The position numbers and the translations under genes are program-made. From positions 1-33,210 of the forward strand of contig NZ_VOOR01000053.1 in the NCBI RefSeq assembly GCF_007993045.1: DNA of 33,210 nt. The letters are read 5' to 3'. Below are positions 1 to 23,888 of the stretch, one piece after another. Within the stretch, counting starts at the first letter, position 1; every line of letters begins with the position of its first letter. Source of the stretch: Phaeodactylibacter luteus. Its GTDB lineage: Bacteria > Bacteroidota > Bacteroidia > Chitinophagales > Saprospiraceae. Below the pieces are notes generated by a model that was given only the letters and a program-made list of their open reading frames with translations, was not told the DNA's origin and did no database searches.

Positions 1-7
1 ATCAATA

Positions 8-32
8 CCTGCGACAGTTTGGTTCACGCCCC
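8..32 (-). repeat. Terminal motif of the dispersed repeat, window-edge copy
   Basis: This 25-bp stretch differs by one base from 23763-23787. Read on the minus strand it contains GGGCGTGAACCAAACTGTCG, which resembles the left end of the intergenic repeat at 23220-23239. The remainder of any element would lie to the left, outside the window. It sits just downstream of the TonB receptor stop codon. Confidence 0.6.
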
Positions 33-3664: not shown

Positions 3665-3788
3665 GGCCTAGCGCTGCGGAGGGGTGGCAAGCCCGATAGG
3701 GCCGAGCGGACAGCGAGCCCCGGAGCATAGCGGCGCCTGCTGTTAGGCAGGGGCAGGCCCCACCCGAACAACAATCTGGTTTGCGCCC
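3665..3788 (-). repeat. Dispersed structured intergenic repeat, copy A
   Basis: Read on the minus strand, the copy begins with GGGCGCAAACCAGATTGT (3788 downward), then has the GCCCCTGCC...GCAGGCGC stem (two mismatches in this copy), and ends with the conserved core running from CGCTATGCT to GCAGCGCTAG. Related copies are at 11638-11785, 17312-17407 and 23220-23565. It fills most of the 328-bp gap between the divergent genes at 3562 and 3891. Its function is unknown. Confidence 0.8.
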
Positions 3789-11637: not shown

Positions 11638-11785
11638 GGGCCGCCAGCCAGGTTGCCGTTTTTTAGGCCTGCCCCTGCACAATGTGAGGGGGCCTCCCCC
11701 TGCCTATCGGCATGGGGCCGCTATGCTACGGGGCTCGCTCTTCGCTCGGCCCTGCCGGGCTTACACCCCTTCGCAGCGCTAGTCC
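11638..11785 (+). repeat. Dispersed structured intergenic repeat, copy C
   Basis: The copy starts at GGGCCGCCAGCCAGGTTGCC, a diverged version of the left end seen in copies A and D. It continues through a first GC hairpin, the CCCCCTGCC-TATC-GGCATGGGG stem (one mismatch), and the core from CGCTATGCTACGGGG to TCGCAGCGCTAGTCC. Compared with copies A and B it lacks one base after GGGCTT, so the core is not a conserved coding frame. Confidence 0.8.
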
Positions 11786-17311: not shown

Positions 17312-17407
17312 GGACTAGCGCTGCGGAGGGGTGGGAAGCCCGATAGGGCCGAGCGGATAGCGAGCCCCGCAGCATAGCGACCCCTGCCTGCGGCAGGGGT
17401 AGGCCCC
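17312..17407 (-). repeat. Dispersed structured intergenic repeat, copy B
   Basis: This is a core-plus-stem copy; the left-end motif seen in A, C and D is not recognisable. The stem ACCCCTGCC/GGCAGGGGT (17380-17400) is a perfect 9-bp helix with a 3-nt loop. Relative to copy D it differs at two base pairs, in both arms, preserving pairing. The core from CGCTATGCTGCGGGG to CCGCAGCGCTAG is nearly identical to copy A. Confidence 0.8.
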
Positions 17408-23202: not shown

Positions 23203-23219
23203 CCTGGCAGACGCCCTTT

Positions 23220-23565
23220 GGGCGCAAACCAGATTGTCGTTTTTCTGGATGGAGCCTGCCCCCTCCGCAAGGATAGGGGCCTGCACCTGCCAACGGGCAG
23301 GTGCCGCTATGCTGCGGGGCTCGCTGTCCGCTCGGCCCTAACGGGCTTAGAGCTAGTTAGGATTTTACTTTTGGAGCGAACGCAGCCAAATTTTGCCCTG
23401 ATCGAGGCGTGATATATTCAAGAATGGGACAAAGGGCCCCATTCTTGAATCCAATAGCCTTAGCTACGTGACCGAAGAACAACGAAGAGCAGGACAAAAT
23501 TCGGCAAGAGCAGCCCGAAGTGTAAAACCCTAACTAGCTCTTACACCCCTTCGCAGCGCTAGGCC
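23220..23565 (+). repeat. Dispersed structured intergenic repeat, copy D, interrupted by a fold-back insertion
   Basis: The copy begins with GGGCGCAAACCAGATTGTCG (23220-23239). It continues with a GC hairpin and a perfect 9-bp stem GCACCTGCC-AACG-GGCAGGTGC (23283-23304), then the core. After GGGCTTA the core is interrupted by the 191-bp element at 23350-23540. It resumes at 23541 with TTACACCCC and ends at GCGCTAGGCC. Copies A-C show the uninterrupted form, so the insertion is the derived state. Confidence 0.85.
23350..23540. mobile_element. 191-bp MITE-like fold-back element inserted in repeat copy D
   Basis: The ends are inverted: GAGCTAGTTAGGATTTTAC on the left and the complement of GAGCTAGTTAGGGTTTTAC on the right. 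Imperfect pairing extends about 55 bp inward (sharing AATTTTG-CCTG). A central perfect 13-bp stem ATTCAAGAATGGG/CCCATTCTTGAAT lies at 23416-23450. It is flanked by TTA on both sides (23347-23349 and 23541-23543), and the uninterrupted copy C has a single TTA at this point. This is a 3-bp target duplication. There is no reading frame for a transposase, so it would be non-autonomous. Confidence 0.8.
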
Positions 23566-23574
23566 AATGCCAGC

Positions 23575-23743
23575 CTAGTGCCTTAAGCCATAAATCTCTG
23601 ATACTTAAGTTGAAGTTATTTTCCGGCTAATCAAGGCGAAGGTTCGCGACTTTAGCCCGAGCTAAAGGAGCGGTTCTTTAACGAAGAGTAGGCGGAAAAG
23701 AACGAAACTTGGGGTGGCAAGGGTTTATGGCTTGAGGCACTAG
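23575..23743. mobile_element. 169-bp MITE-like fold-back element
   Basis: The left arm starts CTAGTGCCTTAAGCCATAAA. The right end read in reverse complement is CTAGTGCCTCAAGCCATAAA, with imperfect pairing across almost the whole length to a tip TTTAGC-CCGA-GCTAAA. The element is flanked by AGC on each side (23572-23574, 23744-23746), a possible 3-bp target duplication. Interior blocks (TTTT followed by CC and CTAATC-AAGGCG on the left arm; CCTnCTCTTCGTT on the right arm) resemble those of the element at 23350-23540, so the two may be relatives. Confidence 0.65.
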
Positions 23744-23766
23744 AGCCCGGAAAGCGTAAACGCCTG

Positions 23767-23786
23767 CGACAATTTGGTTCACGCCC
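23767..23786 (-). repeat. Inverted copy of the repeat's left-end motif
   Basis: Read on the minus strand it is GGGCGTGAACCAAATTGTCG, 17 of 20 bases identical to 23220-23239. It therefore closes the region 23220-23786 with terminal inverted repeats. The surrounding 25 bp matches the window-edge copy at 8-32 with one difference. Confidence 0.65.
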
Positions 23787-23888
23787 CGCCCTTTCAAGGT
23801 TGTTAAACTTATATTATTGCCTGTGCCTCAAAAGGGAAGATGTAGGCGGTTGTTGTATTTTCGGGCTCATCATCAAATACGGACCACT

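Follow-up and report, generated by a model that had tools for sequence, protein, structure and literature searches.

A REP-like structured DNA repeat of Phaeodactylibacter luteus and its relatives, probably exchanged between copies and often carried by a MITE

The intergenic repeat analysed here is, with moderate confidence, a REP-like structured DNA repeat that occupies mostly fixed sites, exchanges sequence between its copies and, in the genome of Phaeodactylibacter luteus, is often the cargo of a MITE. The window (the whole stretch of DNA analysed, 33,210 nucleotides) is one entire contig of the genome searched, which comprises 6.01 Mb in 301 contigs. The first-pass annotation had described four intergenic copies, at 3665-3788, 11638-11785, 17312-17407 and 23220-23565; all four were found at these positions and align with one another. 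The two perfect 9-bp stems it reported are exact; ACCCCTGCC/GGCAGGGGT belongs to the 17312 copy, and GCACCTGCC/GGCAGGTGC lies at 23283-23304. The end assigned to the fourth copy was wrong, and the element continues to 23786. This copy is long because two other elements lie within it; without these nested insertions and their duplicated bases it measures about 208 bp. The features of the window are given below, with the limits of both nested insertions placed by eye.

8 to 31, plus strand: right inverted end belonging to another MITE copy, truncated by the contig start
3665 to 3788, minus strand: copy 1, with its left inverted end from 3788 and AGGCC closing the unit at 3665-3669; no right inverted end was found
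11638 to 11785, plus strand: copy 2, with a decayed left end and a complete unit, terminus TAGTCC
17312 to 17407, minus strand: copy 3, a unit without recognisable MITE ends; hairpin P2 reads ACCCCTGCC-GCA-GGCAGGGGT
23212 to 23219, no strand: left 8-bp target-site duplication CGCCCTTT, a perfect match to the right one
23220 to 23786, plus strand: copy 4, a MITE of 567 bp including its two nested insertions, ends GGGCGCAAACCAGATTGTCG and GCGACAATTTGGTTCACGCCC inverted
23278 to 23565, plus strand: multi-helix unit of copy 4, with stem P1 formed by GGCCT (23278-23282) and AGGCC (23561-23565), split by nested insertion 1
23283 to 23304, plus strand: hairpin P2 of copy 4, GCACCTGCC-AACG-GGCAGGTGC
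23305 to 23338, plus strand: 34-bp core CGCTATGCTGCGGGGCTCGCTGTCCGCTCGGCCC of copy 4, including the small hairpin, located by pattern search
23350 to 23540, plus strand: nested insertion 1 (191 bp), with inverted ends GAGCTAGTTAGG.. and flanked by a TTA duplication (23347-23349, 23541-23543)
23578 to 23740, plus strand: nested insertion 2 (163 bp), with inverted ends GTGCC..GGCAC and flanked by a TA duplication (23576-23577, 23741-23742)
23787 to 23794, no strand: right 8-bp target-site duplication CGCCCTTT, a perfect match to the left one

The repeat is abundant. At up to three mismatches, the 34-bp core matched 722 times in the 6.01-Mb genome (364+358), whereas the reversed-pattern control gave 0+0, which excludes a chance origin. 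The description as a dispersed intergenic repeat was borne out, and the search for further copies that had been proposed as a check, run with the core because most of the signal lies in it, yielded these 722 and others in different genera of the family. All 194 cores found in 1.63 Mb with up to seven substitutions permitted carry 0-3 substitutions, and none carries 4-7. Carriage by phage was rejected, as viral contigs held no exact match to the pattern. A literature search, with most subscription papers outside its reach, found no published description of the repeat.

That the larger element is a MITE with 8-bp target duplications is close to certain. The recurrent 'left end' of the earlier description, GGGCGCAAACCAGATTGTCG, is real and proved to be the inverted terminal repeat of this element; at up to 4 mismatches in 17, one recognisable end was present in each of the 3665 and 11638 copies and none in the 17312 copy. 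The ends read GGGCGCAAACCARATTG, with left ends resembling GGGCGCAAACCAGATTG, inverted on the right as CATTTTGGTTYACGCCC. By the same tolerance, the 194 cores in 1.63 Mb divide into 83 with both terminal inverted repeats, 56 with one and 55 with neither; the one-ended class is partly due to chance, because random windows also showed a left end (15/600) or a right end (30/600). Perfect 8-bp target duplications flank 28 of the 83 two-ended copies, against 0/6,806 mismatched-pair controls. The 8-bp flanks beyond either end have a mean identity of 0.75, compared with 0.27 in mismatched pairs. Flank lengths of 7 and 9 gave means of 0.31 and 0.32; no case was perfect at length 7 and one at length 9, versus 28 at length 8. 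Duplications of 8 bp are compatible with several IS families. The lengths of 39 two-ended copies fell mostly within 172-250 bp, with eight longer ones (277-395 bp). The earlier proposal of a non-autonomous element thus stands for the MITE and is refined by the multi-helix unit, which is a second, separate thing. The contig begins just beyond the right end of another MITE copy (window positions 1-31), so short-read assembly may break at the MITE repeat.

No autonomous parent was found in the 1.63 of 6.01 Mb scanned for pairs of terminal inverted repeats (up to 3 mismatches and 4.5 kb). The one long pair with a duplication, about 4 kb apart on contig C269, is really two MITEs, each with its own duplication, flanking a gene that was judged by eye to encode a putative secreted peptidase. 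For a 4,237-bp pair on C112 the outer 8 bp disagree (2/8 match), and on C247 a pair of 169 bp that seemed 'coreless' turned out to be a MITE in which the tip of the small hairpin has been lost from the core. Seven copies of the end-like sequence GGGCRCAGGCCAAATTG lie distant from any core at G000:C223:198819-199935 (locus L041, 18819-19935), spaced by about 100 bp or multiples of it. The elements resemble MITEs in general in being short, gene-free and multi-copy, with terminal inverted repeats and a target duplication of fixed length, but differ in that the folded unit also exists outside the MITE and in the missing parent within the 1.63 Mb.

The two elements nested in copy 4 are themselves repeated. 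Nested insertion 1 had seven BLAST matches in 0.83 Mb, six of them at least 100 nt long, the window copy counted. Nested insertion 2 had 14, 13 of them at least 100 nt long; the 12 matches listed were 92-100% identical (one being the window copy and one only 65 nt long). Since its copies of at least 100 nt are so similar among the matches listed, nested insertion 2 looks recently active. Nested insertion 1 and its close relatives occupy the site GGGCTTA^GAGC in at least five repeat copies in 0.83 Mb (in the window and on C223, C236 and C1), and this shared insertion site suggests that the element prefers that loop of the repeat as a target.

The multi-helix unit consists of a terminal stem (P1), a palindrome (P2), helices formed by the CGCTAYG and ..CAKCGCT segments, a small GC-TNTTC-GC hairpin and a variable second hairpin. 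The 109 copies extracted from relatives follow a constant plan, running from the GGGC.. stem start through the palindrome, CGCTAYG.., the small hairpin, the variable hairpin and ..CAKCGCT to the stem partner; their palindromes are highly variable in sequence and range, from copy to copy, between long helices and ones of just a few base pairs. Unit length has a median of 121-127 bp in three genomes of the genus Saprospira. The core without MITE ends was found in other genera of the family, where the copies were read, and in part of the copies of P. luteus itself. A core search of 59 genomes gave matches in five, including P. luteus, and 117 copies came from G018, which belongs to another genus. 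With a degenerate core, matches were obtained in 31 of 248 family genomes and 22 of 112 genera, the reversed control giving 0 among the matches listed; the figure of 31 is a lower bound, because the degenerate core tracks one sequence version, and in 260 kb of the Saprospira genome G476 a narrow pattern found 14 copies versus 85 for a broad motif. Spread of the type A core beyond the family was rejected, as only 2 of 217 genomes in the class sample matched (P. luteus and G120) and both belong to the family. The exact 18-bp loop pattern occurred in P. luteus alone of 395 genomes of the phylum, with 72 matches versus 8 for the reversed control, which also matches because the pattern is nearly symmetrical.

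A flavobacterial repeat, whose pattern we presumed to be ..GGGCGTK CCC..GGG TCGGGCTTTCCGCTATATC..ATCCCTMACGC and then searched for, was present in 21 of the 395 phylum genomes at up to one mismatch. It resembles the unit in the order of terminal stem, palindrome and GGG/CCC helix, and 18 of 20 loci could be parsed in the part order of the unit, while one showed none of it. The terminal stem carries G/CA in 10 and T/AA in 8 of these loci, and GGG/CCC forms the first helix in 18, with the double change GCG/CGC in one other. Its loop sequences are its own, however, and homology with the unit rests on architecture only.

Within P. luteus, copies with and without MITE ends form two populations. Among the two-ended copies, 75 of 83 have an identical P2 arm and there are 7 distinct arms; that same arm is carried by 14 of the 55 end-less copies, which show 27 distinct arms. 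The CGCTACG form was absent from all 83 two-ended copies but present in 17 of the 55 end-less ones. Both contrasts (Fisher p 3e-15 and 3e-8, respectively) hold at two other mismatch tolerances. Since two-ended copies are uniform and end-less ones diverse, we read the end-less copies as resident bare units, one version of which would have been captured by the MITE and then spread.

Covariation in the unit beyond chance is real. Paired changes in the stems, as noted earlier, were confirmed, and a coupling scan that was supplied with no structure (APC-corrected mutual information over 104 distinct fixed-column rows) recovered the helices. Its top ranks were c7-t1, c13-t-5, c5-t4, c12-t-4, c11-t-3 and c18-c26, and the first eleven couplings also hold c19-c25, c2-t6 and c14-t-6. 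Eight of the eleven correspond to Watson-Crick helices; the others are c5-t4, c15-t-7 and c12-t-5, the last of which adjoins a true pair. The pair c7-t1 was Watson-Crick in 101 of the 104 rows (TA 61, CG 31, AT 9), and the counts for c13-t-5, c11-t-3, c18-c26 and c19-c25 were 98, 98, 104 and 100. In the relatives, c5-t4 shows a strong non-Watson-Crick coupling (TG in 53 and CT in 48 of the 104 rows), which may reflect pairing that is shifted within an internal loop. Eleven pairs picked after the scan were Watson-Crick in 96.2% of 1,144 cells, compared with 10-51% when slid by one or two columns, and in 96.6% of 352 cells with one row per genome (32 groups); scan and counts take no account of phylogeny, and the 3' block was taken as the first best match, here and in the test of P1, by which a few rows may be misassigned. 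Five complementary bases were present in P1 in 33 of 70 copies from the relatives versus 8.9% for mismatched copies, and none of 2,000 permutations, which include no phylogenetic null, did as well.

The composition of the stems bears on whether they act as DNA or RNA. Among the 44 non-Watson-Crick cells of the 1,144, only 2 were G.T and 26 were A.C; with one row per genome the numbers were 0 and 9, and the A.C excess could have been contributed by a few lineages. For P2, G.T, A.C and other mismatches numbered 4, 2 and 10 of 563 pairs in the relatives (49/109 copies passing the stem threshold vs 14/109 shuffled), 0, 8 and 72 of 829 pairs in P. luteus (92/96 copies passing) and 0, 1 and 1 of 752 pairs in the genus Saprospira (107/239 passing), where the stem finder halts at mismatches and the wobble counts come from related copies. 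A control of seven tRNAs only gave 9 G.T and 0 A.C of 160 pairs. An A.C of the top strand corresponds to a G.T when the bottom strand is read, on which 26 of the 1,144 cells would thus be wobble pairs; should one strand fold, the bottom one is the likelier. The orientation of the repeat relative to tandem gene pairs was even, with 57 same versus 67 opposite in three Saprospira genomes and 18 versus 17 in P. luteus, based on crude ORF calls and excluding hits inside ORFs (7/84, 17/85 and 19/85 in Saprospira; 18/96 in P. luteus). An Rfam search returned no family at gathering score in the window and no match at E<=1 for 10 loci, in agreement with the earlier statement that no known family was recognised.

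Two rival explanations are weighed by these results. A structured non-coding RNA, present in many copies as a small RNA or in UTRs and with its stems maintained because selection acts on the transcript, would account for the rich covariation across genera, the conserved fold and the several conserved loop sequences, and the covarying multi-helix fold does resemble structured RNAs in Rfam. The repeat differs from those families in having no covariance-model match in the window or the 10 loci at the thresholds given. RNA stems usually show more G.U wobble than the G.T rate of the unit, which is 2 of 1,144 cells and 4 of 2,144 P2 pairs, and the random orientation relative to tandem neighbours likewise speaks against a transcript, as does the blank Rfam result in the window and the 10 loci; we regard this explanation as unlikely. 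The near-absence of wobble, the random orientation and the differing interiors at the same site (see below) are better explained by upkeep at the level of DNA, and the stems are likely a DNA structure and not an RNA gene. The 'selection on structure' proposed at first thus keeps its covariation, while its RNA sense is doubtful on the same three grounds. A less probable alternative is that the repeat is an ordinary MITE only, in which case a transposon amplified recently would have the core as its interior and the end-less copies would be worn versions of it. The terminal inverted repeats and 8-bp duplications are clear, and many copies have a single recognisable end (56/194), but the end-less interiors are the more diverse (27 P2 arms in 55 copies), the CGCTACG form is lacking in the 83 two-ended copies, the core is intact where the ends have decayed, and the copies read in other genera show the unit without these ends.

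The Saprospira genomes provided evidence on the behaviour of the bare unit over time. Genomes G476, G568 and G631 belong to one genus, the first two being strains of S. grandis. The broad motif gave 84-85 hits per 260 kb in each, i.e. about one per 3 kb, including at least one false match (G476 235695, judged by eye to lie within coding sequence), and extrapolates to roughly 1,400 hits per genome. Orthology was scored with this motif, as the type A pattern alone undercounts. From G568 to G476, 39 sites had orthologous flanks on both sides; 38 of these were occupied, 14 of the 38 by a different crude type. From G568 to G631, 24 such sites were found, 20 of which were occupied, 11 by another crude type. 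Usable flanks were lacking for 45/84 and 60/84 sites, respectively, and the type labels are crude. In the reverse comparison, 39/39 and 20/20 sites were occupied. No cleanly empty orthologous site was seen among those compared, the motif-less ones keeping an interval of 123-293 nt, and these sites gave no sign that the bare unit had moved. Flanks of orthologous pairs were approximately 93% identical, whereas interiors ranged from 57 to 99%. The elements could be parsed in 65/84, 67/85 and 70/85 cases, and in the 28 orthologous pairs compared a paralogue in the same genome was closer than the orthologue in 10, the orthologue being as close or closer in 18. Some switches, among the matches listed, change little beyond the small hairpin (GCTATTCGC vs GCAGGTCTGC). 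Because sites remain occupied with altered interiors, frequent recent transposition of the bare unit is disfavoured and exchange between copies is favoured. Comparison between strains and species shows exchange in place as a pattern, of which gene conversion would be a plausible cause. When the two S. grandis strains are compared by BLAST, the result is dominated by tandem repeats of about 70 bp each (G476:C1:141639-145546).

Fixed intergenic sites would also be expected of a chromosomal protein-binding site that benefits the host, such as one for gyrase or a nucleoid protein or an uptake or segregation signal. The repeat is very dense in Saprospira, where 260 kb contain 84-85 motif hits, is placed mostly between genes and shares its sites among the S. 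grandis strains, all of which is in line with such a role, but the origin-adjacent arm shows no strand bias (41-43 each way per genome), and the patchy presence (31/248 genomes, for one version) would be unusual for a host signal, so that we consider it improbable. A REP/REPIN family mobilised by a RAYT (Y1 HUH) transposase would fit a hairpin-rich, intergenic repeat with hundreds of copies; the REP-like character of the hairpins, suggested earlier, was itself supported. REP, BIME and REPIN elements and GTAG/CGTC-tagged palindromes (PMC3733652, PMC3116915) are palindromic, intergenic and present in hundreds of copies. The unit shares these properties but has a median length of 121-127 bp with several nested helices, compared with 20-40 bp for such elements, and its P1 and P2 sequences vary widely among copies yet stay complementary. 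Nor does it track RAYT genes: Y1_Tnp is widespread (187/248 family genomes), but the search for PF01797 gave no match in G018, a 97% complete genome with 197 copies, or in G468, which has 13. As G018 is 97% complete, a missed RAYT gene is possible; RAYT as a necessary partner was rejected on its 197 copies without a PF01797 match. In P. luteus, one RAYT-like gene was found, and copies of the repeat lie on both sides of its locus (L031), which favours mobilisation by RAYT. At this one locus, however, other palindromes adjoin the gene and the unit lies further out. The gene is flanked by these different palindromic repeats of its own at about 1220-1400 and 1890-2075 (CGTCCCTCCGGGACTTGGCTCTG.. 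and GTTCCGYAGGAACGG..). Taken together, mobilisation by RAYT seems a rather poor prospect.

The structured DNA repeat that we prefer can be set out as a sequence of steps. The MITE, which in most cases measures 170-250 bp and has ends GGGCGCAAACCARATTG, bears 8-bp target duplications of the kind that a cut-and-paste transposase would leave. Its cargo is the multi-helix unit, which also occurs end-less in other genera and in part of the P. luteus copies. Bare units would be the older residents of the lineage, and one uniform version may have been captured between transposon ends and amplified. The stems would act as DNA, in the form of a hairpin or cruciform, perhaps with the bottom strand as ssDNA, and be recognised by a putative protein; the near-absence of wobble pairs suggests that they are held perfect by selection or by hairpin-templated correction. 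In S. grandis, the sites are old and mostly fixed, with whole interiors, or not much beyond one hairpin, swapped for other versions, as might occur by short-tract gene conversion. A bolder version, which we put forward tentatively as possible but doubtful, is that these are ssDNA-folding elements, perhaps Bacteroidota-wide, held at fixed addresses, where a putative recombination or copying system reads the folded bottom strand and swaps entire hairpin modules among the many sites without altering the flanks.

Textbook compensatory changes can thus arise in mobile DNA whose stems have hardly any wobble pairs, which is a warning for covariation-based discovery of RNA. In Saprospira, the abundance of the repeat and the turnover of its interiors at fixed sites make gene conversion, or a dedicated enzyme, directly testable.
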